Below are positions 256 to 21,630 of a stretch of 32,795 nt of DNA, in pieces (the stretch's first letter is position 1; every line of letters starts with the position of its first letter). The translations under genes and the position numbers were made by a program. Source of the stretch: a bacterium CPR1 (GTDB lineage: Bacteria > Vulcanimicrobiota > Xenobia > Xenobiales > QWHO01); contig QWHO01000127.1 in assembly GCA_021404945.1 (NCBI GenBank), positions 1 to 32,795 on the forward strand, given 5' to 3'. The notes below the pieces were generated by a model that was not told the origin of the DNA, made no database searches, and saw nothing but the letters and a program-made list of their open reading frames with translations.

Positions 256-1614
256 ATGCCCCCGCGCCGCCCGCTGACCTCGCACGAGCCTTCCCTGTTC
301 GACTCGCTCTTCGACCCCAAAGCCCCGCTGGCCGCCCGCATGCGACCTCGCAACCTGGACGAGTACGTGGGCCAGCAGCACCTGGTCGGGCCCGGTAAAA
401 TGCTACGCCGGGCCATCGAGCAAGACAACCTGCACAGCTCGATGATCCTGTATGGCCCTCCCGGCACTGGCAAGACAAGTCTTGCCCGGGTCATCTCCCT
501 GCACACCAGGGCCGAGTTCTTCACCTTGAGCGCGGTGCTGTCGGGGGTGGCCGACCTTCGTCGCGAGGTGGCCCGGGCGACCGAGCTCAAGCAGTCGGGA
601 CGGCGCAGCATCCTGCTCGTGGATGAGATCCACCGCTTCAACAAGGCCCAGCAAGACGCGTTGCTGCCCCATGTGGAGGATGGAACCATCCTGCTGATCG
701 GCGCCACCACCGAAAATCCGTTCTTCGAGGTGATCGGAGCCCTGGTGAGTCGCAGCCGCATCTTCCGGCTGCAGGCTCTGACCGAGTCCGACCTGGAGGA
801 GATGCTGCGCCGCGCCCTGACCGACGAGCGAGGCTACGGCGGGCGCGGCGTGGAGGCCCAGGAGGAAGCGCTCAGATTTCTGGCCGAGATGGCCGGAGGC
901 GATGCCCGCACGGCCCTGAATGCGCTGGAGCTGGCGGTGGAATCGGCCCCGGGCGAGCCGGTCACGCTGGAGCGAGCCCAGGAGGCCCTGCAGCGTAAGG
1001 CCCTGCGCTATGACGCCAGCGGTGATCAGCACTATGACACTGTCTCAGCCTTCATCAAGTCGGTGCGCGGCTCGGATGTGGACGCTTCGCTCTTCTACCT
1101 GGCCCGAATGGTGGAAGCGGGCGAGGATCCCCGGTTCATCATGCGGCGTCTCTTCATCCTGGCCGGCGAGGACATCGGCCTGGCCGACCCCCAGGGAGTC
1201 GTGGTCGTGGCCTCATGCGCACGGGCCCTGGAGTGGTGCGGGCTGCCAGAAGCAAAATACCACCTGGCCATGGCCACCGTCTACCTGGCCGCCGCCCCCA
1301 AATCCAACAGCATGATGGGTTACTTCGCCGCTGAGGCCGCCGCCCTCGAGCACCCCGACGCCGCCGTGCCTGTCCACCTGCGCGATGCTCACTACAAGGG
1401 CGCCGCCCGACTCGGACACGGCAAGGGCTACCGCTACCCGCACGACTTCCCGGGCCACTGGACCGCCCAGCAGTATCTGCCCGACAAGCTTGCCTCCCGG
1501 CAGTTTTACCAACCCGGTCCGCTTGGCTACGAGCAAAAGATTGCCCAACGACTTCAGGTCTACCGTCCCTCCCAAGAAGGAAGCATGGGCGGGACGGGTG
1601 GAAGATCACCCTAA
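256..1614 (+). CDS. rarA: Replication-associated recombination protein A (RarA/MgsA, AAA+ ATPase)
   Basis: This is a AAA+ clamp-loader-like ATPase that acts at stalled replication forks and at gaps left by replication (RarA/MgsA/WRNIP1 family). Walker A GPPGTGKT lies at residues 67-74, Walker B LLVDEIH at 120-126 and the sensor-1 segment ATTEN near 150-154. The C-terminal half carries the family's helical tetramerisation region, including the conserved MRRLFILAGEDIGLADP-type stretch and the YKYPHDF-like motif seen here as YRYPHDF. The length of 452 residues is normal. The start was chosen because the family N-terminus (a short disordered lead before LAARMRPRNLDEYVGQ) fits; no clear ribosome binding site precedes it. 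Genes for a small unknown protein and a MATE exporter follow on the same strand. Identification is firm. Confidence 0.96.
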   Translation: MPPRRPLTSHEPSLFDSLFDPKAPLAARMRPRNLDEYVGQQHLVGPGKMLRRAIEQDNLHSSMILYGPPGTGKTSLARVISLHTRAEFFTLSAVLSGVADLRREVARATELKQSGRRSILLVDEIHRFNKAQQDALLPHVEDGTILLIGATTENPFFEVIGALVSRSRIFRLQALTESDLEEMLRRALTDERGYGGRGVEAQEEALRFLAEMAGGDARTALNALELAVESAPGEPVTLERAQEALQRKALRYDASGDQHYDTVSAFIKSVRGSDVDASLFYLARMVEAGEDPRFIMRRLFILAGEDIGLADPQGVVVVASCARALEWCGLPEAKYHLAMATVYLAAAPKSNSMMGYFAAEAAALEHPDAAVPVHLRDAHYKGAARLGHGKGYRYPHDFPGHWTAQQYLPDKLASRQFYQPGPLGYEQKIAQRLQVYRPSQEGSMGGTGGRSP

Positions 1615-1637
1615 CCAGGATAAAGGAGCCCGCAGCC

Positions 1638-2018
1638 CTGTACAACATCGCTTCTCGGCTGAACCAGATCCGCCAGGCCATCGACCAGGTGCTCTCGGGC
1701 GAAATGAGCCCGGAAGCCTTCCGCGACTTTTTGAACACCACCCACGAAGCTCTGCTCGAAAAAGGGCGCGCCAACCGCGAATGGCTCGAGGAGAGTGGCT
1801 ACGCCGCCTCGGCGCCGGCCGAGGCCGAGCAGGCCTACGCCGCCATGGACCTCTACGAGGAGGGGATGACCGAAATTCGCCGTTACCTCGACGACCAGAA
1901 CCCCCAGCACCTCGAGGCCGGTTTCAACCTCTGCAAGGATGGCAACACCAAGATGAACAAAGCCATGACCATCAACCGCGACAGCTACGAGGAGCTGGAA
2001 ATCAACTTCCAGATGTAG
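1638..2018 (+). CDS. Small hypothetical protein, predicted helical
   Basis: I do not recognise this protein. It is acidic and rich in Glu, Ala and Leu, probably all-helical, with no signal peptide or membrane segment. Reading with a canonical start begins at GTG 1689 (109 residues). However, the frame stays open and codon-like upstream (around LYNIASRLNQIRQAID), and a strong Shine-Dalgarno AAAGGAG at 1622-1628 is correctly spaced for a CTG at 1638. I therefore prefer the longer 126-residue form, with a non-standard start. The gene starts 24 nt after rarA ends, and its TAG stop is immediately followed, in the same frame, by the MATE reading frame. The repeated Y/E-rich helices could form a coiled coil or small bundle. 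Function unknown; the start is uncertain. Confidence 0.6.
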   Translation: MYNIASRLNQIRQAIDQVLSGEMSPEAFRDFLNTTHEALLEKGRANREWLEESGYAASAPAEAEQAYAAMDLYEEGMTEIRRYLDDQNPQHLEAGFNLCKDGNTKMNKAMTINRDSYEELEINFQM

Positions 2019-2057
2019 CTCCTGGACCTCACCCGCGAACCGCTTCAGCGGGCTCTA

Positions 2058-3416
2058 TTGCGCCTTTCGCTCCCGATCATGGGAGCGATGTTGCTCGAGA
2101 CCCTGTTCAATCTACTCAACGCCTTCTGGGTCGGCAAGCTGGGCACGCTGGCCTTTGCCGCCGTCAACCTGGCCAGTTTTACCGTCTGGCTCCTGTTTGC
2201 CCTGGCGGCCATCATCACCACCGGAACCAATTCGGTAGTGGCCCAGCGCATCGGAGCCGGCGATCCGATGCAGGCAAGACGGGCCGCCCATGTGGGTATC
2301 CTCACCTCCTTCTGCCTGGGCGTGGTGGTGGCCTTTCCCGTGCTGATCTTCTCCGACGACCTGCTGGCCTGGATGGCCGGGAGCACCACGGAGGGCCGCG
2401 AGGCGGTCCGCATCGGCACAAGCTATCTGGGCCTGGTCTTCCTCTGGGCCCCCATCCACTGCCTCAACGACACCCTGTCGGCCATCTTTCGAGCGGCAGG
2501 CGACACGCGCACCCCTCTGCGAGTCTACGCGGTCGGCTTTGCGGTCAACTTCGTGCTCGATCCTCTGCTGATCTTCGGGCCGGGCCCGTTTCCCCGACTG
2601 GAGGTGGTGGGCGCAGCCCTGGCCACCAATCTCTCCTTCACTCTGGTCACAGTCCTCTACGTGACCCGGCTCAAGGACCTCCCTTTCCAACTCGGGCGAC
2701 GTCCCGGCGAGGATCTGCGCAAGGTGTTCAGCCGCCACTGGCTCTACGAGATCCTGCGCATCGGAATCCCCCCCTCCATTGCGTTTGTAACCTTTTGCCT
2801 GGTCTACATGCTGATCGCTCCCATCGTGGGAGCCTTCGGACCAGCGGCCCTGGCCGCGCTGGGCATCGGCCACCGCTGCGAGAGCCTGTCTTACCTGGTC
2901 TGCCATGGCCTCTCGCTGGCCGCCATCACCCTGGTGGGCCAGAACATCGGCGCCGGGGAGATGGAGCGAGCTCGCCGGGCGGCCTGGGTGGCGGTGCGCA
3001 TCGTTATGTTGGCCAGTCTGGGAACAACCACCCTCTACCTGGTGGGAGCCCCCCTGTGGGTGAGCCTGTTCTCGAGCGACCCCGAGGTGCTGGCCGTGGG
3101 AGTGCCTTATCTTCACATCATGGCCTTCGCCCAACTGCCCATGGGGGTGGCCATGGTCGTGCAGGGCGCCTTCTCGGGGGCGGGCGTGACCGTTCCGCCC
3201 ACCATCGTGGCCACCACCTCGGCCCTGCTGCGCGTCCCTCTGGCGCGCTGGTTGGCCCTTACCAACGGGCTGGGGCTGAACAGCATCTGGTGGGCCATCG
3301 TGGGCCTCACCACGGTGCAGAGCCTGGTAATGGCCGCCCTGTTCCATGCCGGACTGTGGAGGAAAGGGGCTAAGCGGCTTGAACCGCCCTCCAACCCAAT
3401 CGGAGGAACGCCATGA
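2058..3416 (+). CDS. MATE-family multidrug/toxic compound exporter
   Basis: This is a polytopic inner-membrane antiporter of the MATE (NorM/DinF-like) family, expected to export cationic drugs or metabolites using a Na+ or H+ gradient. About twelve hydrophobic segments are visible in two homologous halves. Hallmarks include PIMGAMLLETLFNLLNAFWVGKLG-like text near the N-terminus and IGAGDPMQARRAAHVG, repeated in the second half as GQNIGAGEMERARRAAW. The listed TTG start gives 452 residues. Residues encoded just upstream, from CTG at 2022, spell DLTREPLQRALLRLSLP, which matches the usual MATE N-terminus, so the true start is probably 2022 and non-standard. The 3' end overlaps the argF ATG by 4 nt (ATGA), implying translational coupling. 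The substrate cannot be inferred. Confidence 0.9.
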   Translation: MRLSLPIMGAMLLETLFNLLNAFWVGKLGTLAFAAVNLASFTVWLLFALAAIITTGTNSVVAQRIGAGDPMQARRAAHVGILTSFCLGVVVAFPVLIFSDDLLAWMAGSTTEGREAVRIGTSYLGLVFLWAPIHCLNDTLSAIFRAAGDTRTPLRVYAVGFAVNFVLDPLLIFGPGPFPRLEVVGAALATNLSFTLVTVLYVTRLKDLPFQLGRRPGEDLRKVFSRHWLYEILRIGIPPSIAFVTFCLVYMLIAPIVGAFGPAALAALGIGHRCESLSYLVCHGLSLAAITLVGQNIGAGEMERARRAAWVAVRIVMLASLGTTTLYLVGAPLWVSLFSSDPEVLAVGVPYLHIMAFAQLPMGVAMVVQGAFSGAGVTVPPTIVATTSALLRVPLARWLALTNGLGLNSIWWAIVGLTTVQSLVMAALFHAGLWRKGAKRLEPPSNPIGGTP

Positions 3417-11335: not shown

Positions 11336-12431
11336 GGGGCGAGTCGTCGTCCATGAGGATGCTTGGAGTCGAGGCCTGAGACAGGGCCATCTCCGGCTGC
11401 TCTTCCATCACCGTCAGCTCGCTAGGATCGTCGAGCAGCTTGCTGGCCTCCTCGCGACTGACCAGGCCCACATCCACCATGCGCGACAGATGGCGACCCA
11501 GCGTCTGCATGTTCCCCTGGCGCATGGCCTCGTGCAGGCTGGAGGTCTCGCCCCTTCCGATTCCATCGGCCACTTCCTCGTTGCACTCGAGGATCTCAAA
11601 GGCGGGGAGCTTGCCTCGGCCATCGGCCCGGGGGACCAGGTACTGGCAGACGACCAGCTTCAAGACCCTGGAAAAGAGGCGCAGCATCCGGTTGTCATTG
11701 TTGTTGTAGAAAACTTCCACAATCTGATCTACAGCCCGCACTGCCGAGGGGGCGTCCAGCATGGCCAGCACCAGGTGCCCCCCGGCGGCAGCCTGGATGA
11801 CCACCTCCACCGTGTCCGGGTCGGGCAGCTCGCCCACAGCCAGAATGTCCGGGTCCTGCAGCACGGCCTGGCGAATCCCGTGGACATAAGTCTCGGTATC
11901 CACCCCGACTTCCCGCTGCACCACGGTGGCTTTCTTACTCTCGTGCCAGAACTGGATGGGGGATTCCAGGGTCACCACCCGCACCCGCTGCTGCTCGTTG
12001 AGGTGCGAGATCAGCGAGGCGAACGAGTTGATCTTTCCGCAACGCGGGCGTCCTACCAGGAGGATCAGCCCCTGACGCTGGTCGAGCAACTGCTCCAGGA
12101 CGCTGCCGGAAAGACCGAGTTGAGCAAAGCCGACCTCCATCCCCCGGGCCAGGGCCAGCAGATGCTCCTGATTGAGAACCTGCGAAAGCAGAGCCTGACA
12201 TTCACGGGGAGAAATGGCGTGCTCGCCAACCGGAACCAGCTCATGGTTGATGCGCAGCATCGGGAACGATCCCCCGTTGAGGTGCAGGAAGGTTCCCCGA
12301 TGCTTGACCATGACCGAAAGCAACTGTTCCAGGCTGAAACTCAGCTTGGGCTTGCCACTCTTCTCGGCCAATCCCTCTACGGCAGCCGTCAGTCGCTGCA
12401 GGGTGGCATTCAACTGCTCGTCGAAACTCAA
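11319..12431 (-). CDS. PilT-like secretion ATPase homologue with degenerate active site
   Basis: This aligns along its length with the twitching-motility retraction ATPase PilT, but key residues differ. The Walker A, encoded at about 12030-12053, reads GRPRCGKI: the Gly and Lys remain but the essential Ser/Thr after Lys is Ile. The Asp box TIEDPIE reads TLESPIQ, and the His box region (ATLHTNSA in PilT) reads AMLDAPSA. The Walker B-like VGEL keeps its Glu. I infer that it binds nucleotide poorly and acts as a regulatory or structural partner rather than a motor. TTG 12431, 10 nt after the rpoZ stop with GAGGG upstream, is preferred; an ATG at 12479 would overlap rpoZ. The protein is about 370 residues. 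It forms an operon with rpoZ. No other pilus gene is in the window. Confidence 0.8.
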   Translation of the reverse strand: MSFDEQLNATLQRLTAAVEGLAEKSGKPKLSFSLEQLLSVMVKHRGTFLHLNGGSFPMLRINHELVPVGEHAISPRECQALLSQVLNQEHLLALARGMEVGFAQLGLSGSVLEQLLDQRQGLILLVGRPRCGKINSFASLISHLNEQQRVRVVTLESPIQFWHESKKATVVQREVGVDTETYVHGIRQAVLQDPDILAVGELPDPDTVEVVIQAAAGGHLVLAMLDAPSAVRAVDQIVEVFYNNNDNRMLRLFSRVLKLVVCQYLVPRADGRGKLPAFEILECNEEVADGIGRGETSSLHEAMRQGNMQTLGRHLSRMVDVGLVSREEASKLLDDPSELTVMEEQPEMALSQASTPSILMDDDSPLMSWL

Positions 12432-12441
12432 AACCGATCCC

Positions 12442-12765
12442 TCAGTTGATGTCGGCTTCCAGCTCTTCCTCTTCGGCACCCGAGTCAGGGTCGGCGCTCA
12501 GGACCCGCGAGAGCGTGTCCTGTCCGTCCAGGTTGAGGTGGGGGAAGAAATCGTCGTCCTCGTTCACCCCGCGGGTGACCGAGATCTTTCCTGCCGCAAT
12601 CTCCCACAGAGCCTGGCTGACCGACTTGCGGGCGTTGGTCTCGGCCAGCACCGGGCTCCCGTCGTTCAACTGCCGCGCCCGCTTGAGAGCCAGCGTCACC
12701 AGCGCAAACTTGTTGTCCAGGGCTTCATTGCTCAGCAGCAGGTCGAGATTGGGTTCTACCAGCAT
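12442..12765 (-). CDS. rpoZ: RNA polymerase omega subunit
   Basis: The small accessory subunit that chaperones beta-prime in RNA polymerase. The omega signature DNKFALVTLALKRARQLN is near residues 17-34 and NARKSVSQALWEIAAGKI near 45-62. The 107-residue length is slightly long because of an acidic tail (EEEELEAD). The ATG at 12765 is preceded by GGAGG. It is the first gene of a minus-strand pair with the PilT-like ATPase and diverges from ftsK across 111 bp that must hold both promoters; I see no clear -35/-10 pair there. Confidence 0.88.
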   Translation of the reverse strand: MLVEPNLDLLLSNEALDNKFALVTLALKRARQLNDGSPVLAETNARKSVSQALWEIAAGKISVTRGVNEDDDFFPHLNLDGQDTLSRVLSADPDSGAEEEELEADIN

Positions 12766-12876
12766 CGGGGATCCTCCAGGGACGTTTGGGATTTACGAAC
12801 CAGCGAGGATACGCCGCGCCGAGTCGAGATTCCTGCAGGAAGGAGGGTATTCAAGCTTGATAGAAATTCTTTCGCC

Positions 12877-15327
12877 ATGCCATCTCAGCCACTGGAGAAC
12901 CCGATCGGGGAGACCCGGCCCAAGCGCCGCTCAAACCTGCAAGGGTGCGACAAGCCGAGCCGAAAGGCACGCCGGCGTCCCCAGGCTCCGGCAGTCTCGG
13001 TCAGCTCCCCTTCGGTAGCCGCGCCCGCGGCCGGCCTCGGCCTGTTGCTGGTGGGAGTGCCCTTCCTGACCATCTGCCTGGCCGCCCCGCACGTGACCGG
13101 AGCCGTTGGTCTGGCCGTCTCGGCCACTCTACACGCGGCCTTCGGCCGTTCGGCCTGGCTCCTGCCCTGGCTGGGGCTGGGCTGGAGCCTGCGCCTGTTG
13201 GCCCCGGGACTTCTCAAGGGAATGCAGGTGGGTTGGCCGGCTCTGCTGCTCTGGCTCGACCTCACCCTGCTGGCCCAGCGCATGGGGGGACAGGGGGGAC
13301 AGCTCGGCTACGGGCTCGACCTGCTGCTGGTGCGAGCCCTGGGACCGGCCGGCTCCTGGATCGTCGGGGGCGCCGGGCTGGCCGCAGGCCTGCTCATGGT
13401 CTGCCAGATTCCGCTCTCGGACGTGGGCCGCGTGCTGGCCGCGGGGGCGCGCCACCTGGGGCGGGCAGGTTGGAGGGTGCTGCGCACGGTGGGGAGCATG
13501 CTGGCCAGCCTCCACCCCGGACCCTGGGCCGAGGAGCCTTCCACCGAGGGCCAACCAGCCGTGGAGGTCTCCGAGGAGGCCCGACCCCTGACCGTCTGGG
13601 AGACCACGCCAGGATCCCCTGCCATCAGCGAGGAGGCTTATGAGACCGCAGTGGAGCCCAGCCTGCTCCCGGAGGAGGTCTTCAGTGATGAGGTCGATCT
13701 CATCCCCTCGGAAGAGGCCAGCTATCATCCCGAGCCGTCCTTGAGCCAGGAGCCGGAGCTTTTGCCAGAGCCGACTGAAGAGGCTCCTCAGCCTTCTCCC
13801 CCGACCGCAGAAGAGAAGCCGGCCCCCAGGCCACCGCGCCCGGCACCCATTCAGAACGGCGTTCTCGAAGATCCTGACGGCCAGTTGCGGCTCTTTCCGG
13901 GTCCGCCCCGCCTGCCGACGGCCACCTACAAACTGCCTCCCCTGTCCTTGCTCGACTCGCCCCCGGCCCAGGCGCGACGTCGTCCCGAGGAGGACAAGTC
14001 CCAGATCCTCATCGACACCCTGCAAAGCTTTGGCGTGGAAGCCCGGGTCATCCACACCGTGCGCGGTCCAACCGTCACCCGCTACGAGCTGCAGCCTGCC
14101 CGGGGCGTCAAGGTGAACCGCTTCACGGCCCTGACCAACGATATCGCGCTGGCCCTGGCGGCCACTGCAGTGCGCATCGAGGCCCCCATCCCGGGCAAGG
14201 CCGCCATCGGCATCGAGATCCCCAACCGCTCCACCGACCTGGTGGTGCTGCGCGACATCCTGTCAGCTCAGGTCTTCAGTAAGTCCAACGGGCTCACGCT
14301 GGGGCTCGGCCTTGATTTGACCGGACAGCCGGCCGTCACCGACCTGCAAAAGATGCCCCACCTGCTCGTAGCCGGCACCACCGGTTCGGGCAAATCGGTC
14401 TGCATCAACACGCTCATCTTGAGCCTGCTCTATCGCTTCACCCCGCGCCAGCTTCAAATGCTGATGATCGATCCCAAGCAGGTCGAGCTATCCATCTATG
14501 AGGGGCTTCCTCACCTGGTGGGCTTCTCCAACCAGAAACCGGGCCAGATCGTGGTCGACCCGAAGAAGGCCGCCCTCACCCTCAACCAGGTGGTGGAGCT
14601 GATGGAGCAGCGCTACGCCACCTTTGCCGCCCTGCGGGTGCGCAACCTGGCCGAGTTCAACTCCAAGGCACCCGAGCCGCTGCCCTGGGTGGTGGTGATC
14701 ATCGACGAGCTGGCTGACCTGATGATGGTGGCCTCTAAATCGGTCGAGACCAGCATCTGCCGGCTGGCCCAGAAGGCCCGAGCGGCCGGCATTCACGTGG
14801 TGGTGGCCACCCAGCGGCCGTCCACCGACGTGATCACCGGACTGATCAAGGTCAACATCCCCTCCCGCATCGCCTTCGCCGTCACCTCTCAGGTCGACTC
14901 GCGGGTCATTCTGGATACCGGTGGGGCCGAGCAACTTCTGGGCAAGGGCGACATGCTGTTCTTGCCGGTGGAGGCATCCGACCCGCGCCGCCTCCAGGGC
15001 GCTTACGTCTCCAACGACGAGATTCAACGGGTGGTCGAGTTCTGGAAAGCCCAGGCCCACCCGGAGAACCTGATCGAGCTGGCCATCAACGAAAACGCCG
15101 GCCTGGAGGCCGAGGAAGAGGGCGGGGGCGATGAGGACGACGCCCTGCTCCAGCAGGCCCTGGAGGTGGTGCTGCGCACCCAGCAGGCTTCGGCCTCCAT
15201 GCTCCAGACCGAGCTCAAGGTGGGCTACGCGCGCGCTCGACGAATCCTCACCTTGATGGAGCGCAAGGGCTGGGTCGGCCCGGCCGAGGGCAGCAAGCCG
15301 CGCAAGATTCTCTACAGCGGCGGCTGA
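12877..15327 (+). CDS. ftsK: DNA translocase FtsK/SpoIIIE
   Basis: A septal DNA pump that clears and resolves chromosome ends during division. In the 816-residue protein, about four hydrophobic helices lie at residues 45-180. A Glu/Pro-rich linker of about 150 residues (roughly 205-345) follows, then the alpha/beta motor with Walker A GTTGSGKS at 500-507 and VVVIIDELADLMM as Walker B. The C-terminal gamma winged helix (LQTELKVGYARARRILTLMERKGWVG in part) recognises KOPS-type sequences. ATG 12877 was chosen because the longer open frame runs antisense through rpoZ. Its ribosome binding site is poor: an AGGAGG at 12841-12846 is too far upstream. Confidence 0.95.
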   Translation: MPSQPLENPIGETRPKRRSNLQGCDKPSRKARRRPQAPAVSVSSPSVAAPAAGLGLLLVGVPFLTICLAAPHVTGAVGLAVSATLHAAFGRSAWLLPWLGLGWSLRLLAPGLLKGMQVGWPALLLWLDLTLLAQRMGGQGGQLGYGLDLLLVRALGPAGSWIVGGAGLAAGLLMVCQIPLSDVGRVLAAGARHLGRAGWRVLRTVGSMLASLHPGPWAEEPSTEGQPAVEVSEEARPLTVWETTPGSPAISEEAYETAVEPSLLPEEVFSDEVDLIPSEEASYHPEPSLSQEPELLPEPTEEAPQPSPPTAEEKPAPRPPRPAPIQNGVLEDPDGQLRLFPGPPRLPTATYKLPPLSLLDSPPAQARRRPEEDKSQILIDTLQSFGVEARVIHTVRGPTVTRYELQPARGVKVNRFTALTNDIALALAATAVRIEAPIPGKAAIGIEIPNRSTDLVVLRDILSAQVFSKSNGLTLGLGLDLTGQPAVTDLQKMPHLLVAGTTGSGKSVCINTLILSLLYRFTPRQLQMLMIDPKQVELSIYEGLPHLVGFSNQKPGQIVVDPKKAALTLNQVVELMEQRYATFAALRVRNLAEFNSKAPEPLPWVVVIIDELADLMMVASKSVETSICRLAQKARAAGIHVVVATQRPSTDVITGLIKVNIPSRIAFAVTSQVDSRVILDTGGAEQLLGKGDMLFLPVEASDPRRLQGAYVSNDEIQRVVEFWKAQAHPENLIELAINENAGLEAEEEGGGDEDDALLQQALEVVLRTQQASASMLQTELKVGYARARRILTLMERKGWVGPAEGSKPRKILYSGG

Positions 15328-15390: not shown

Positions 15391-16590
15391 ATGAGTCGTC
15401 CTTTCCGATCCGTTGTGGTGGCCGCAGCCCTGTATCTGACGCTACAAAGCCCCTCCTGGGCTCAACCTGCGGTGGCGAAGGTGGTCGAAATCGATGGTCC
15501 CAAGATGACCTACGAGCGCAAGTCGGCCACCGCCCTGGCCTTTCCTTTCATGAACACGATGGTGAAGGATGAATACCAGACCGACGCCTCCACCGTGGCG
15601 GCTCTGGAGTTTGTCACCGGAGGCCGGGTGGGCATCAACAAAGGCACCCGCATCGAGATCGTCAGCGAAAGCGAGATCAAGGAAGAAGGCAAGCCCGTCG
15701 TCAAGCGGATCAAAATTAAGGGCGGGCGGGTCTGGGCCAAGATGTCCAAGCGCAAAGAGCCGCTTGAGATCGAGACGGCCGGCGGAGTCATGGGAATCAA
15801 AGGCACCGAATTCGTGATCGCCACCGAAGACAACGGGGCCACCAGCCTGAACGTGCTCGAGGGCGAGGTGGAAGTGACCCCGGTCGGTGGGGGAGAGCCC
15901 ATCTCGGCAAAGGCGGGCACCAAGGTGGACATCCCCTACCAGCAGGTTCCGGTGGTCAAGCAGTATGACGACCCGGAGGCTCTGCGCGAGGAGATCCTCA
16001 ACTCAAGTGAGTGGCGAGACTTTCAGAAAGCCATGGACATCGTGCGCACCATCTCGAGCTACAGCTATATCCCGGGCAACATCGGCCTGGGAACCGCCGG
16101 CGAGGCCTTCTATTATGCCGGCACCGTCAGCGATTTCATCTCCGACCCCGAGCAGGCCGCCCTGAGCCTGGCCGCCAGCTATGTCCCGGGAGGTGGCTAC
16201 CTGGGCTACATTCCCCGTAACTCCAAACCAAAGAAACCCGATTTCCCCACCAACCCTGTGCCAGCCAACAACATGACCGTCTCCGGCCCGCCCAGCTTCA
16301 GCTGGACCCAGGTCGAGAAGGCCAGAGGCTATCTTTTGCTGCTCAGCCGCGAGGAGCAGATGGGCAACCTCGACTGGGCCACCAAAACCAGCAGCACCAG
16401 CGTGAGCTACCCGGCCGAAGCCGCGCCTTTGCCGGCCGGGACCTATTACTGGCGAGTCATGGGACTCGACGACGAGGGCAAGCCGTTGGGGAAGGCCACC
16501 CAGAGCGTTTTCGTGACCGAAGGTTGGGGAGCCCCCCCGGTTCCCGACCCTGCGACCTCGCCCGTGCCCGACCCCGCTCCCACGCCTTGA
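15391..16590 (+). CDS. Secreted FecR-domain protein with C-terminal Fn3-like domain
   Basis: A 399-residue exported protein. The first ~25 residues form a Sec signal peptide (hydrophobic core VVVAAALYLTLQ, likely cleavage after SWA). A FecR-type beta domain follows at about 85-180, with RIKIKGGRVWAKM and TAGGVMGIKGTEF, the usual FecR core repeats. Residues ~285-375 look like an Fn3-type fold (PSFSWTQVEKARGYLLLLSRE, then YYWRVMGLDDEGKPLG). The tail is Pro-rich with repeated VPDP. FecR domains outside iron signalling commonly accompany CHASE2-cyclases, as here, where two follow after 13 bp and a 4-bp overlap. I infer a periplasmic or surface ligand/partner for the CHASE2 sensors. A GGAGTGAGG site at 15373-15381 supports the ATG. 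Confidence 0.85.
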   Translation: MSRPFRSVVVAAALYLTLQSPSWAQPAVAKVVEIDGPKMTYERKSATALAFPFMNTMVKDEYQTDASTVAALEFVTGGRVGINKGTRIEIVSESEIKEEGKPVVKRIKIKGGRVWAKMSKRKEPLEIETAGGVMGIKGTEFVIATEDNGATSLNVLEGEVEVTPVGGGEPISAKAGTKVDIPYQQVPVVKQYDDPEALREEILNSSEWRDFQKAMDIVRTISSYSYIPGNIGLGTAGEAFYYAGTVSDFISDPEQAALSLAASYVPGGGYLGYIPRNSKPKKPDFPTNPVPANNMTVSGPPSFSWTQVEKARGYLLLLSREEQMGNLDWATKTSSTSVSYPAEAAPLPAGTYYWRVMGLDDEGKPLGKATQSVFVTEGWGAPPVPDPATSPVPDPAPTP

Positions 16591-16603: not shown

Positions 16604-18475
16604 ATGCTGAGTCGGCCCACCCTGGTTCTGGGTTGCGTCTTGCTCGGCGTCACGCTTTCGTTCCTGCCCTGGATGGACCGGTTGGAGCTTTCTCTTTACG
16701 ACTTCAGAATCGAGTTCATGCAGGAAGAGATGCGGAAGGTGGGGCTGCGCCTTCATCCGGCCATCCAGATGGTGGGGATCGACGATGCGACCGTCGAGCT
16801 CGATCTCTATCCGCGCTGGAGCCTCACCAAAGGGGAGCGATGGGGGCCGGACCAGCTGGCCCGGTTGATCGCCCAACTCTCCGGCCGTGGGGCCAGGGGC
16901 GTTCTCTATCTTCAAGCCGAGCCCGAACGCTCGGCCAGGGAGAGCAAGAATCGCTGGCGCCTTTCGGATGCGCTGCACATGGTGCAGGAAGGGACAGGGC
17001 TCTTGTCCCGAGGGCTGCGTCTGCGCCAGCAAGATGGCAAGTATCTCAGTGACTGGCAGGATCGACTCGCGGGCGATCCGATCCCGGCCTGCTCGGTCGA
17101 CTTCCTGGCCGACCAGGACGGCGTGGTGCGGCAGGCCTACCTGGCGACTCGTTTACCTGCCAGGGCTCGCCCCGTTCCATCGGGTGCCCTGGTACTCCTG
17201 GCCAGGCTGCTCGACGTTCTGCCCGAGGACATCAAGTATGGCCCCGATTGGATCCAGGTCGGCCCTCGCCTGATTCCAACCACACCGGACTACACCCTCA
17301 GGATCCGTCCCCTCAACCCGCGCAGCCTCAGTCTTAAGGACCTCAAGGAACAGGAGCTTGAAGGGATCCGGGTCGAGTATCTCGCTCCGGTGTCGGCTGC
17401 CCGCTTGCTCGACCTCGAGGATCCCCTCTACCAGCTCATCTCCGGGCGCATCGTCGTGATGGGGAACTTCCAGCATGACGCGACCGAGCAGGTCATGACC
17501 AGCTACCACCGGATGAAGGCCATCCAGTTTCAGGCCTGCGTGCTCGACACTCTATTGTCAGAATGGTACCTCCAGTCTCCACCGGCCTGGGCTCAAAGTG
17601 TCCTGCTGGTGGCCGGCACCTTTCTGATCGTCGCCCTGGCAGCGCTTCGCCGACCATTGTTCGCATTGCTGACGGTCACAGCCGGAATCGTCCTGCTGCT
17701 GGCAGTCAACCTGATCGCCTTCGAGCAAGGCACTTATCTCAACCTGGCCCGCCCTCTGGTCGCTCTGATCGCTTCCTCGCTCGCCCTGGTCGCCCTGCAG
17801 CTGGTGACACTCATGCGCAGCCTGCGAAAATTCGGGGGCAAGAGTGCCTTCGAAGCGGCCAGAAGCCTGGATGAGTCGGGGCTCAACGTGATCCGAGAGC
17901 AAGTGGCCACGATTGTCTTCTGCAACGTGCCCGAGCTGGTCAAGAATCTGGAGAAGGCCGACTCAACCGACTACTTTCGGCGGCGCCAGGAGTTCTCGAT
18001 GCTGCTCAACGACGTTGCCGTCGAGAACCGGGGCGTGGTGCTGGACTTTCAGGGCGACGCGCCGATGATCGGGTTCAACGCCGAACTGGAAAGGTCCGAC
18101 CCCCAGCACGCCTACCATGCCGTGCGGGCCTGCCTGGAAATCGTCTCCATGAGCGACAAGCTTCGCCAGCTTTGGTGGGATATCGACGACGACGAGCAGA
18201 TGGCAATTCGATGCGGCGTGGCCACCGGGCCGGTGGCCATCGGTCAGGTCGGGGCACGCTCGAGCAAACTGGCCTCGGCAGCTATCGGCGACACTACCAA
18301 CGTGGCCGCCCGACTGTTGGGGGCAGCCAGGCGTCTGAACGTAGAGGTTCTGGTGGCGGAGGAAACCCGCAATCTCTGCCACAATCGATTCCGCTTCGAG
18401 GACCTGCCTCCAGTCCTACTGAAAGGCAAAGCGAAACCGGTTCCCGTAGCCCGGATCAGATTGTCAGAGCTGTGA
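16604..18475 (+). CDS. CHASE2-domain class III cyclase homologue A (metal-site Asp replaced)
   Basis: A 623-residue membrane protein. An N-terminal TM helix is followed by an extracytoplasmic CHASE2 sensor (about 30-310), two or three TM helices (about 325-405) and a C-terminal class III nucleotide cyclase domain (about 430-620). Several catalytic positions deviate. The first metal-binding Asp of the FADI-type motif is Asn441 (VFCNV). The second, Asp485 (QGDAP), is kept. The substrate-selecting Lys of DKFIGD-like text is Asp. The transition-state residues are intact in IGDTTNVAAR (Asp563, Asn566, Arg570). Alone, a homodimer should be poorly active. The downstream cyclase B retains the metal Asp lost here, so a heterodimer is plausible. 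Its stop overlaps the start of B by 4 bp. Confidence 0.85.
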   Translation: MLSRPTLVLGCVLLGVTLSFLPWMDRLELSLYDFRIEFMQEEMRKVGLRLHPAIQMVGIDDATVELDLYPRWSLTKGERWGPDQLARLIAQLSGRGARGVLYLQAEPERSARESKNRWRLSDALHMVQEGTGLLSRGLRLRQQDGKYLSDWQDRLAGDPIPACSVDFLADQDGVVRQAYLATRLPARARPVPSGALVLLARLLDVLPEDIKYGPDWIQVGPRLIPTTPDYTLRIRPLNPRSLSLKDLKEQELEGIRVEYLAPVSAARLLDLEDPLYQLISGRIVVMGNFQHDATEQVMTSYHRMKAIQFQACVLDTLLSEWYLQSPPAWAQSVLLVAGTFLIVALAALRRPLFALLTVTAGIVLLLAVNLIAFEQGTYLNLARPLVALIASSLALVALQLVTLMRSLRKFGGKSAFEAARSLDESGLNVIREQVATIVFCNVPELVKNLEKADSTDYFRRRQEFSMLLNDVAVENRGVVLDFQGDAPMIGFNAELERSDPQHAYHAVRACLEIVSMSDKLRQLWWDIDDDEQMAIRCGVATGPVAIGQVGARSSKLASAAIGDTTNVAARLLGAARRLNVEVLVAEETRNLCHNRFRFEDLPPVLLKGKAKPVPVARIRLSEL

Positions 18476-19161
18476 GAAGCTCGCGCCTCTACCGCACCTT
18501 CCTGCCCTTTCTTCTGGCCCTGCTCGGCTGGCTGGCCCGGATCTCCCTGGAGGGGGTTCTTTCTCCTCTGGAAGCCTACCCGTATGATACAGCCTTGAAG
18601 TACCTGACCCGACAGGAGCAGGGAGCGAAGATCATCCTGGCCGGGATTGACGACGAAACGCACCAGCAAGGCAAATTCAACCGCTTGGCCCACGCCCAAT
18701 TCTTGATCAACATGCGCGAGCATGGAGCTCGCGTGGTCTTCCTTGATCTTCTGTTTGACGCCCCCCGCGACGAGGAGATGGATGCTGCACTGACCGAGGC
18801 CGTCAACGAGACGGGTCTGGCCGTGCTGGCCTGCACCATCGGACTTCAGACGGTCAAGACCGAAACAGGAGACTCGAAGATGAATCAGCGAGGCACCCTG
18901 ATCGAAAGCCTGGAGGAGAGTCTTGCAGCAGGCCGAGCACTTCCCGGGCTGATCAATTGCTACAACGACCCGACCGACCAGAAAGTCCGTACCGCCGCGC
19001 TGGCCATTCAGTCTCCCGACCTCGATCGCCCCTGGCCGGCGGCCGCGAGATGTGGGGCTTCCCCAAGAAGCTTACCTTCCCCGGGCGACAGGTCCGGACC
19101 TGAGTCCTTCCCGGCGCGCGATGCCTGTCATCCCTTACCACGAGTTGATCGACCCCGATAG
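18472..19161 (+). CDS. CHASE2-cyclase B, 5' part (frameshifted gene)
   Basis: This is the N-terminal part of a second CHASE2-cyclase. It starts at GTG 18472, overlapping the stop of cyclase A (GTGA). A TM helix (LPFLLALLGWLARISLEGVL) is followed by the first two-thirds of a CHASE2 domain (IILAGIDDETH, ARVVFLDLLFDAPRDEEMDAAL). The homologous text stops near 19030-19045; beyond that this frame runs into unrelated residues up to its stop at 19161. The CHASE2 domain and cyclase continue in another frame (19052-20239). It is either a real frameshift or a sequencing/assembly indel. Confidence 0.75.
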   Translation: MRSSRLYRTFLPFLLALLGWLARISLEGVLSPLEAYPYDTALKYLTRQEQGAKIILAGIDDETHQQGKFNRLAHAQFLINMREHGARVVFLDLLFDAPRDEEMDAALTEAVNETGLAVLACTIGLQTVKTETGDSKMNQRGTLIESLEESLAAGRALPGLINCYNDPTDQKVRTAALAIQSPDLDRPWPAAARCGASPRSLPSPGDRSGPESFPARDACHPLPRVDRPR

Positions 19162-20239
19162 CCCCGCCCTGAAAGCGGTCAAAGGCGCCGTCGTCATCGT
19201 GGGGGACAACACCGATGGCGAGACAGACCTTTATCCGACGCCGGTAGGACCGATGAAAGGGTTCGAAATCCACGCTCAGATCCTGAATACCCTTCTGACC
19301 GGCCCGTACGCGCGAGTCCTTCCTGAATGGGTCCAGGGACTGTTAAGCTACCTTCTCAATCTCGCCATTGCCATGGCAATCCTGCGGTCTCGCTCCAAGT
19401 GGACCGCCCTGTTCTCGTCCGTGGCCCTGCTCGGGGCGCTGCTGGGCGTCTACGGAGCGCTCTTCAGTCTCGGCAGGCAGACCGGCATCGCCGGCACCAC
19501 TGGAGGCTACCTGACAACCCTGGTGCTGGCCATCACCGCTCGTCTTCTCCTGACGGCCCAGGTGCTCCAGAGATTCATTCCGCCGGAAGTGGTCAGTGCC
19601 GTGATGGCCGCTGGCAGCGCCAGGCCCCGGAACGAGATCGCCACCATCATCGTGACCGATATCCGGGGTTACACCACCCTGTCCGAGACCAGGACACCGG
19701 TTCAGATTCTCACGTTGCTCAACGAGTATCACAGCGTCACGGTAGCCATCTACGAAAGGCACGGCGGCCGGGCCCTCACCTACCAGGGAGACGCTCAGAT
19801 CATCGCATTTCTCCACAAGAAGCAACTCAATCCATCCGCCGCCGCCATTCGGGCGGCCTACGAGATGCAGAAAGCAGTCGATATCCTCCGGGAGCGTTGG
19901 GGAATTTTCAATCGCTCCGAATTCGACGTGGGAGCGGCCGTCTGCACCGGACCCCTCACCATCGGGGAGATCGGTACGACCGGCTCCGGCCGAGCCGAGT
20001 ACACCGTCATCGGCGAAACCGTTCGGATGGCTCATAAGATTCAGTCTCTGAGCCAGATACTCCGCTGCAATGTGTTGATGGACGAGGCCAGTTTCCACGC
20101 ATCCAAGCTCTCGATGCACGTGGACGAGTTCAAGGATCGCCAATTGGAGGGCATGGACATACCGGTGACCCTTTACGGGCTCCGTTCACTGGCCGTTCCA
20201 GGTAAGAAGAGTGCAGTCAGCTTGGGAGTGGAACGTTAG
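19052..20239 (+). CDS. CHASE2-cyclase B, 3' part with class III cyclase domain
   Basis: This continues the gene begun at 18472 in another frame. It holds the end of the CHASE2 domain (VIPYHELIDPDSPALKAVKG, then GFEIHAQILNTLL), three TM helices (about 19330-19580) and a class III cyclase domain. The metal-binding Asp residues are present (TDIRGYT, codon 19658-19660, and QGDAQ, codon 19790-19792). The IGDTVNxAAR motif is degraded to IGETVRMAHK: Asp to Glu, Asn to Arg, Arg to Lys (20015-20038). This is the reciprocal of cyclase A. As an independent ORF it could start at GTG 19052, but the family N-terminal half lies upstream. The first roughly 20 residues in this frame are probably not native sequence, because the third frame (EMWGFPKKLTFPG at 19047-19085) looks more like CHASE2. 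Confidence 0.75.
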   Translation: MGLPQEAYLPRATGPDLSPSRRAMPVIPYHELIDPDSPALKAVKGAVVIVGDNTDGETDLYPTPVGPMKGFEIHAQILNTLLTGPYARVLPEWVQGLLSYLLNLAIAMAILRSRSKWTALFSSVALLGALLGVYGALFSLGRQTGIAGTTGGYLTTLVLAITARLLLTAQVLQRFIPPEVVSAVMAAGSARPRNEIATIIVTDIRGYTTLSETRTPVQILTLLNEYHSVTVAIYERHGGRALTYQGDAQIIAFLHKKQLNPSAAAIRAAYEMQKAVDILRERWGIFNRSEFDVGAAVCTGPLTIGEIGTTGSGRAEYTVIGETVRMAHKIQSLSQILRCNVLMDEASFHASKLSMHVDEFKDRQLEGMDIPVTLYGLRSLAVPGKKSAVSLGVER

Positions 20240-21003: not shown

Positions 21004-21630
21004 CTAGAGGTACTTTCGGATCAGGGCGGTGACCCGACCGAGCAGCTGGAGCGGCTGGCTCTCGGTCACGACGATGTCGGCAAAGTCGGGGTTGTCCGAG
21101 CGCAGAATCACTCGCTCTTTCTCGCGCCAGAAACGCTTCACGGTAGCCTCGTCATCGATCAACGCGACCACGATCTCTCCCTGCTGGGCGGTAGGGTGCT
21201 TCTCGACCAGAACCAGGTCTCCCGGTTGGATGGCCTCTGCCATACTGCGGCCACGCACGCGCAGCAGAAAGCTCTCTTTGTTGACGCCCAGCCAGTCGCT
21301 CCGAATCGGCAGACGATCCTCCACATTTTCAACGGCAGTGATAGGCAAACCGGCCGCCACCTCCCCCAGGAGAGGAATCATCTGGACCTCGTCCTGACCG
21401 GGCTGCCCTTCGAGTAGCTGAGGGGTGATCTGGATGGCCCGCGCCTTGGAGTCACGCCGGATGAACCCCTTCTTCTCGAGCGCCTCCAGGTGCCTTTGCA
21501 CACCCTGAGTGGAGTTGAGGTTGAAGTGGGCCGAGATCTCCCGAATCGACGGGGCGTAACCGCGCTCACGCACAGTGTCGATCAAGAAGCTCAGGATCTC
21601 GTCTTGTCGCGCCGTAATCTCTCGGGTCAT
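21004..21630 (-). CDS. lexA: LexA SOS repressor
   Basis: The SOS-response repressor and RecA-stimulated self-protease. The N-terminal winged helix occupies residues 1-66 (ARQDEILSFLIDTVRERGYAPSIREI). The cleavage site Ala93-Gly94 lies in GEVAAGLP, catalytic Ser129 in RGRSMAEA and catalytic Lys165 in EATVKRF. The length of 208 is typical. The ATG at 21630 follows GGAGG by 6 nt. Its promoter (21674-21702) is overlaid by two LexA-type sites, indicating autoregulation. Two small ORFs follow on the same strand. pgpH diverges from it. Confidence 0.97.
   Translation of the reverse strand: MTREITARQDEILSFLIDTVRERGYAPSIREISAHFNLNSTQGVQRHLEALEKKGFIRRDSKARAIQITPQLLEGQPGQDEVQMIPLLGEVAAGLPITAVENVEDRLPIRSDWLGVNKESFLLRVRGRSMAEAIQPGDLVLVEKHPTAQQGEIVVALIDDEATVKRFWREKERVILRSDNPDFADIVVTESQPLQLLGRVTALIRKYL

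Follow-up and report, generated by a model that had tools for sequence, protein, structure and literature searches.

Complementary catalytic losses in tandem CHASE2 cyclase genes suggest a heterodimeric class III cyclase in Eremiobacterota

The window analysed here, a stretch of 32,795 nucleotides that forms one contig (C354) of a 7.4-Mb assembly in 798 contigs, carries two adjacent forward-strand genes, cyclase A and cyclase B, each of which joins a CHASE2 sensor (PF05226) to a class III nucleotidyl cyclase domain (PF00211). Named records among the relatives of this genome include metagenome-assembled genomes (MAGs) of Candidatus Eremiobacterota, a phylum now called Vulcanimicrobiota. Cyclase A (16604..18475, +) is an intact open reading frame of 623 amino acids (aa) with full CHASE2 (77.7 bits) and Guanylate_cyc (37.5 bits) domains in Pfam. 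Cyclase B begins directly after it, at 18472, and the stop codon of A and the start codon of B share a GTGA at 18472..18475 (+), an overlap that the first-pass annotation of this DNA had read correctly and that has counterparts in the other split A/B loci, each with a 4-nt start/stop overlap (ATGA, GTGA or TTGA). The same annotation treated B as one cyclase reading frame and missed a break: in this assembly the gene lies in two different frames, an N-terminal part with the membrane/CHASE2 segment (18472..19161, +; CHASE2 51.9 bits, profile positions 7-129) and a C-terminal part with the end of CHASE2, membrane helices and the class III cyclase domain (19052..20239, +; CHASE2 45.6 bits, profile positions 170-251; Guanylate_cyc 42 bits). 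The cyclase domains of both A and B score above the Pfam cut-off.

Residue positions in both proteins were fixed by alignment to solved cyclases and to further cyclases from the phylum, B being numbered from the frame at 19052-20239, and the roles of the catalytic residues are those given in earlier work (PMC2576301, PMC7384201). In A, the position of the first metal-binding Asp is occupied by Asn441 in the motif FCNV (17924..17926, +), while the second metal Asp, Asp485 (18056..18058, +), is kept; Asn566 to Arg570, the ribose-orienting and transition-state residues (18299..18313, +), and Lys607, the triphosphate-positioning Lys of the beta7-beta8 loop (18422..18424, +), are invariant in A. 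The base-specifying Lys is replaced by Asp481 (18044..18046, +), and the second base-contacting position is Ala559 (18278..18280, +), where adenylate cyclases have Asp or Thr. In B, both metal Asp are present (Asp203, 19658..19660, +; Asp247, 19790..19792, +), Thr243 sits at the base-Lys position and Thr318 at the second base-contacting position, and the ribose and transition-state residues are lost from the motif IGETVRMAHK, which has Arg325 for Asn and Lys329 for Arg (20024..20038, +). Among solved structures, the best sequence match of B is the guanylate cyclase Cya2 (PDB 2w01; E 2e-15). The alignment thus bore out the placements of the first-pass annotation, namely the substitution at Asn441, the retention of Asn566 and Arg570 in A and of both metal Asp in B, and the lack of Asn and Arg in the B motif, with the exception of Asp563 of A; this residue, which had been counted among the retained catalytic set, is the D of IGD and is neither a standard catalytic residue nor the base contact, a position held by Ala559.

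Homologues were sought by searching 149 genomes from the phylum and by scanning 84,980 named species genomes; the scan was unbiased towards loss because the B patterns used in it lay upstream of the Asn/Arg motif and did not include the motif itself. We obtained ten A/B pairs spanning three families (one in the window, one in each of five genomes that belong to a single genus, two at separate loci of the MAG BWSM_10, and one in each of two genomes from a further family), with A cyclase-domain identity as low as 29%; a search of genome contigs with A alone gave no related loci. The first metal Asp is absent from all ten A copies (Gly in five, Asn in three, Ser in two), which keep the second Asp, the Asn and the Arg, and all ten B copies keep both metal Asp, have Arg in place of the Asn and have Lys, Glu or His in place of the Arg. 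In none of the pairs does A or B carry the two metal Asp, the Asn and the Arg that characterise each protomer of a homodimeric class III cyclase, and A and B together make up the complementary set of the C1/C2 type, with the metal Asp pair on one subunit and Asn/Arg on the other; the survey of tandem loci proposed at first pass found no A or B that had regained the full set. All four residues are kept in 47 of the 47 other non-redundant related class III domains compared, and since the losses affect every A and every B (10/10 each) against 0/47 of the other domains, the complementary pattern is not due to chance; the counts were not converted to a p-value, since residue sets are inherited. The triphosphate Lys follows suit, being present in 10/10 A, in 17/18 single cyclases of the parent type and in 2/10 B. 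That A and B could instead be homodimeric cyclases of altered catalytic chemistry, each active alone, seems to us scarcely credible: A does keep its second metal Asp, and the Lys that replaces Arg in most B copies is a conservative change, but the Asn of B has become Arg in every copy, its Arg has become Glu or His in three, and the first metal position of A varies among Asn, Ser and Gly, as though no constraint acted on it. Of the 17 class III domains that could be aligned from the genome of the window, 14 retain the full set, the exceptions being A, B and a degenerate homologue, L136 (G000:C544:21325-21774). The latter has Glu, Glu, Ser and Arg at the four catalytic positions and is probably inactive.

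In a tree built after masking of the six catalytic columns, A formed one clade (support 100/96) and B another (100/99), and the internal branching of the two was alike; an approximately unbiased test did not reject A and B as a single clade (p 0.27), a result that permits this grouping without establishing it. Two loci of BWSM_10, L103:4514-8134 and L101:4709-8029 (1206 and 1106 aa), have A and B joined in a single open frame, and each fused protein shows the complementary residue pattern. Because the A halves of the two fusions cluster with each other, as do the B halves, at moderate support, a single fusion followed by duplication is the likeliest history. The likely ancestor of the pair is a single cyclase gene that was linked to FecR and had all four residues; single-gene FecR-CHASE2-cyclase loci with the full set are present in four genomes (G015, G016, G018 and G026), which fits a tandem duplication of such a gene with complementary loss thereafter. 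A different two-domain arrangement was seen at L032 and L063 (G014), where a protein of 889-908 aa has, behind a full class III domain, a second domain that resembles a cyclase only weakly (15.5 bits). The genome of the window has 18 PF00211 cyclase matches and 18 cyclic nucleotide-binding matches and is therefore rich in cyclic nucleotide signalling, and the number of cyclases would allow A and B each to partner other cyclases of the cell and not one another. We consider this decidedly unlikely, since A and B are adjacent or fused in every locus found and the two trees mirror each other, with an A-B identity correlation across pairs of 0.97, a value inflated by shared descent. The scan of named species genomes gave no lone B-type gene, each of its nine B-type loci being adjacent to A or fused with it.

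With a probability that we put at roughly 0.78, A and B constitute an obligate heterodimeric class III nucleotidyl cyclase of Eremiobacterota (Vulcanimicrobiota) with one working site per dimer. The first-pass annotation, whose observation was partly confirmed, had already offered this interpretation, and it is supported by the reciprocal losses in 10/10 pairs, the natural fusions, the triphosphate Lys as a third complementary residue and a predicted C1/C2-like arrangement. In such a dimer, B would be the C1-like subunit and provide both metal-binding Asp, and A would be the C2-like subunit, in which Asn566, Arg570 and Lys607 would position the ribose and the triphosphate and would stabilise the transition state; A would also contribute the base pocket. 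The second, pseudo-symmetric site is expected to be inactive, because B is without the Asn, the Arg and usually the Lys and A is without one metal Asp, and it may be regulatory by analogy with the forskolin site, which is regulatory in mammals (PMC3591389). Each subunit has its own membrane-anchored CHASE2 sensor, with which the FecR protein encoded upstream probably acts, and with two CHASE2 sensors and FecR the cyclase could integrate two inputs.

The predicted arrangement comes from an AlphaFold2 model of the 872-residue cyclase-CHASE2-cyclase part of a fused protein, for which the alignment combined A cyclase fragments with whole B rows, MAFFT with all A and B having put A on the B half. 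The cyclase domains were modelled mostly at a predicted local distance difference test (pLDDT) score of 75-96, with a predicted template modelling (pTM) score of 0.53, and both match solved cyclases; the best full-chain matches among solved structures were AC9, AC5 and AC8. Against the isolated soluble C1-C2 unit of AC9 (7pdf), the TM-score was 0.71, normalised to the 453-residue target, and because this exceeds what one domain alone could give, the two cyclase domains of the fused protein are predicted to be arranged like C1 and C2 of AC9. An earlier model from A rows only (pLDDT 53.5, pTM 0.42) gave the same top matches without the matching arrangement.

Several lines of evidence speak against a working heterodimer: (i) the base pocket of A (Asp481 and Ala559) fits no standard adenylate cyclase, and activity is not readable from the sequence; (ii) the triphosphate Arg expected on the metal-binding subunit was seen in our alignments neither in B nor in the related single cyclases; (iii) the model of the fused protein was built on a shallow alignment, AlphaFold2 may put any two class III domains in a C1/C2-like arrangement, and the root-mean-square deviation from full-length cyclases is 12-24 A, which is high because the linker and CHASE2 parts do not match; and (iv) B is disrupted in this genome as assembled. 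The first two points would suit a pseudo-enzyme that binds nucleotide and relays the CHASE2 signal by contact without making a cyclic nucleotide. We judge this unlikely, as decay would not leave exactly one complete catalytic set per pair in ten loci, and as the Asp of the base pocket is shared with 18 single cyclases that have the full D,D,N,R set.

Those 18 cyclases also bear on the substrate of the proposed heterodimer, which could be ATP or GTP. The remark made at first pass that the usual Lys is replaced, by Asp in A and by Thr in B, and that the substrate may therefore differ, stands, but the Asp is a trait of the parent family and not of the pair, being found in 10/10 A and in all 18 of these 'D-type' single cyclases. 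The base pocket is Asp plus Ala in 10/10 A and has neither the Lys and Asp/Thr that adenylate cyclases carry in the Asn/Arg subunit nor the Glu and Cys/Ser of guanylate cyclases, which it approaches in being acidic, with a shorter side chain. In guanylate cyclases, the Glu at the corresponding position makes the main guanine contact (PMC7384201). Because A has an acidic Asp at this position, cGMP is a plausible product. The substrate of the D-type CHASE2 single cyclases is not predictable by known rules, and we know of no assay of a class III cyclase with Asp at the base-Lys position. CHASE2-type single cyclases with this Asp and all four catalytic residues occur at many loci (e.g., L047, L046, L062 and L082), and two further cyclases in the genome of the window, L124 and L126 (G000:C174 and C459), have Glu at the base-Lys position, i.e., are guanylate-cyclase-like.

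The disruption in B (19040..19080, +) combines a change of frame with the loss, relative to intact homologues, of about 22-50 CHASE2 codons around 19047-19073. Homology in the first frame stops at about 19047-19062 and picks up in the second at about 19073, CHASE2 profile positions of about 130-168 are absent in Pfam, and intact B homologues carry about 22 to 50 extra residues at the break point. Programmed frameshifting was ruled out, since codons are lost in addition to the frame and all homologues are uninterrupted. The break is thus either a real lesion or an assembly error. Should it be real, B would be a pseudogene in this genome only, with A orphaned or paired with another cyclase and the pair still working in relatives, a reading that is compatible with the heterodimer for the family as a whole and that we regard as a serious possibility, if short of even odds. 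The missing codons and shifted frame favour it, as do the uninterrupted appearance of the other window genes examined by Pfam and the absence of a second intact B copy from our search of this genome, whereas 3' of the break the cyclase frame runs through 395 codons without a stop and has every residue typical of the family, and the sequence is a single MAG contig that may be misassembled at this point. In a related genus, A and B are under purifying selection, with ratios of nonsynonymous to synonymous substitution (dN/dS) of 0.06-0.28, many of the dS values being near saturation. A 13-nt imperfect direct repeat lies close to the break, at 19075 and 19106.

The closest parallels to the proposed heterodimer are the mammalian membrane adenylate cyclases (e.g., AC9), which likewise have two diverged class III domains, one shared site with the metal Asp pair and the Asn-Arg-Lys set split between them, and two membrane modules, in a single chain as in the BWSM_10 fusions. 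A/B differ from these in being bacterial, in being encoded mostly by two adjacent genes, in having CHASE2 sensors in place of six-helix anchors, in the reversed order (C2-like first), in the one metal Asp kept in A and in the base pocket (Asp/Ala in A versus Lys/Asp). Soluble guanylate cyclase alpha/beta and the chytrid rhodopsin-cyclase/NeoR are also heterodimeric class III cyclases (PMC3591389, PMC7655827), and in the former neither homodimer holds a full site, as predicted for A/B; both, however, are eukaryotic and have other sensor domains and a Glu/Cys-type base pocket. Bacterial single-gene CHASE2 class III cyclases, among them those linked to FecR in this phylum, have the same domain plan as A/B, and the D-type singles, of which four are preceded by a FecR gene, resemble A in their Asp at the base-Lys position, but none of the four residues is missing from these single-gene cyclases, and symmetric homodimers are expected. 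Cya2 has an acidic Glu at the base-Lys position, comparable to the Asp of A, but is a homodimer with a full site, and B has Thr at this position.

Bacterial class III cyclases have been described as homodimers, with the fused dimeric form unknown in bacteria, and the advantage of cyclase duplication and fusion has been raised as a question (2022 perspective, PMC9552081). We found no bacterial heterodimeric class III cyclase among the papers listed by our literature searches, which covered no bioRxiv preprints and left out many subscription papers, and a class III cyclase of C1/C2-like design is apparently new in bacteria. We think it probable that an obligate one-site heterodimeric class III cyclase arose in a bacterial lineage, separately from those of eukaryotes, one that in one genome is fused into a CHASE2-cyclase-CHASE2-cyclase chain with the layout of mammalian adenylate cyclases and that possibly makes cGMP, not cAMP. 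The apparent steps, from the full-set FecR-linked single cyclase through the complementary tandem pair to the fused pair, coexist in one phylum, so that the origin of the asymmetric C1/C2 design can be tested in organisms other than eukaryotes; an enzyme with two different CHASE2 sensors would, in addition, be a model of how two inputs control a cyclic nucleotide signal.

The first gene of the operon (15391..16590, +) encodes a FecR-domain protein (Pfam FecR, 45 bits) with a signal-peptide-like start. A FecR gene lies 5' of A in both tandem and fused loci and 5' of single-cyclase genes in four other genomes, and FecR genes that adjoin genes for CHASE2 receptors are known from elsewhere (PMC5192318); the FecR protein is likely a periplasmic partner of the CHASE2 sensors. 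Elsewhere in the window, a 662-aa open frame at 1385-3373 (+) has no Pfam match, and lexA lies 3' of cyclase B on the opposite strand (21004-21630, -). Upstream of the FecR gene is ftsK (12214-15327, +), and the gene order FtsK-FecR-A-B is also present at L102, in a different family of the same taxonomic order.

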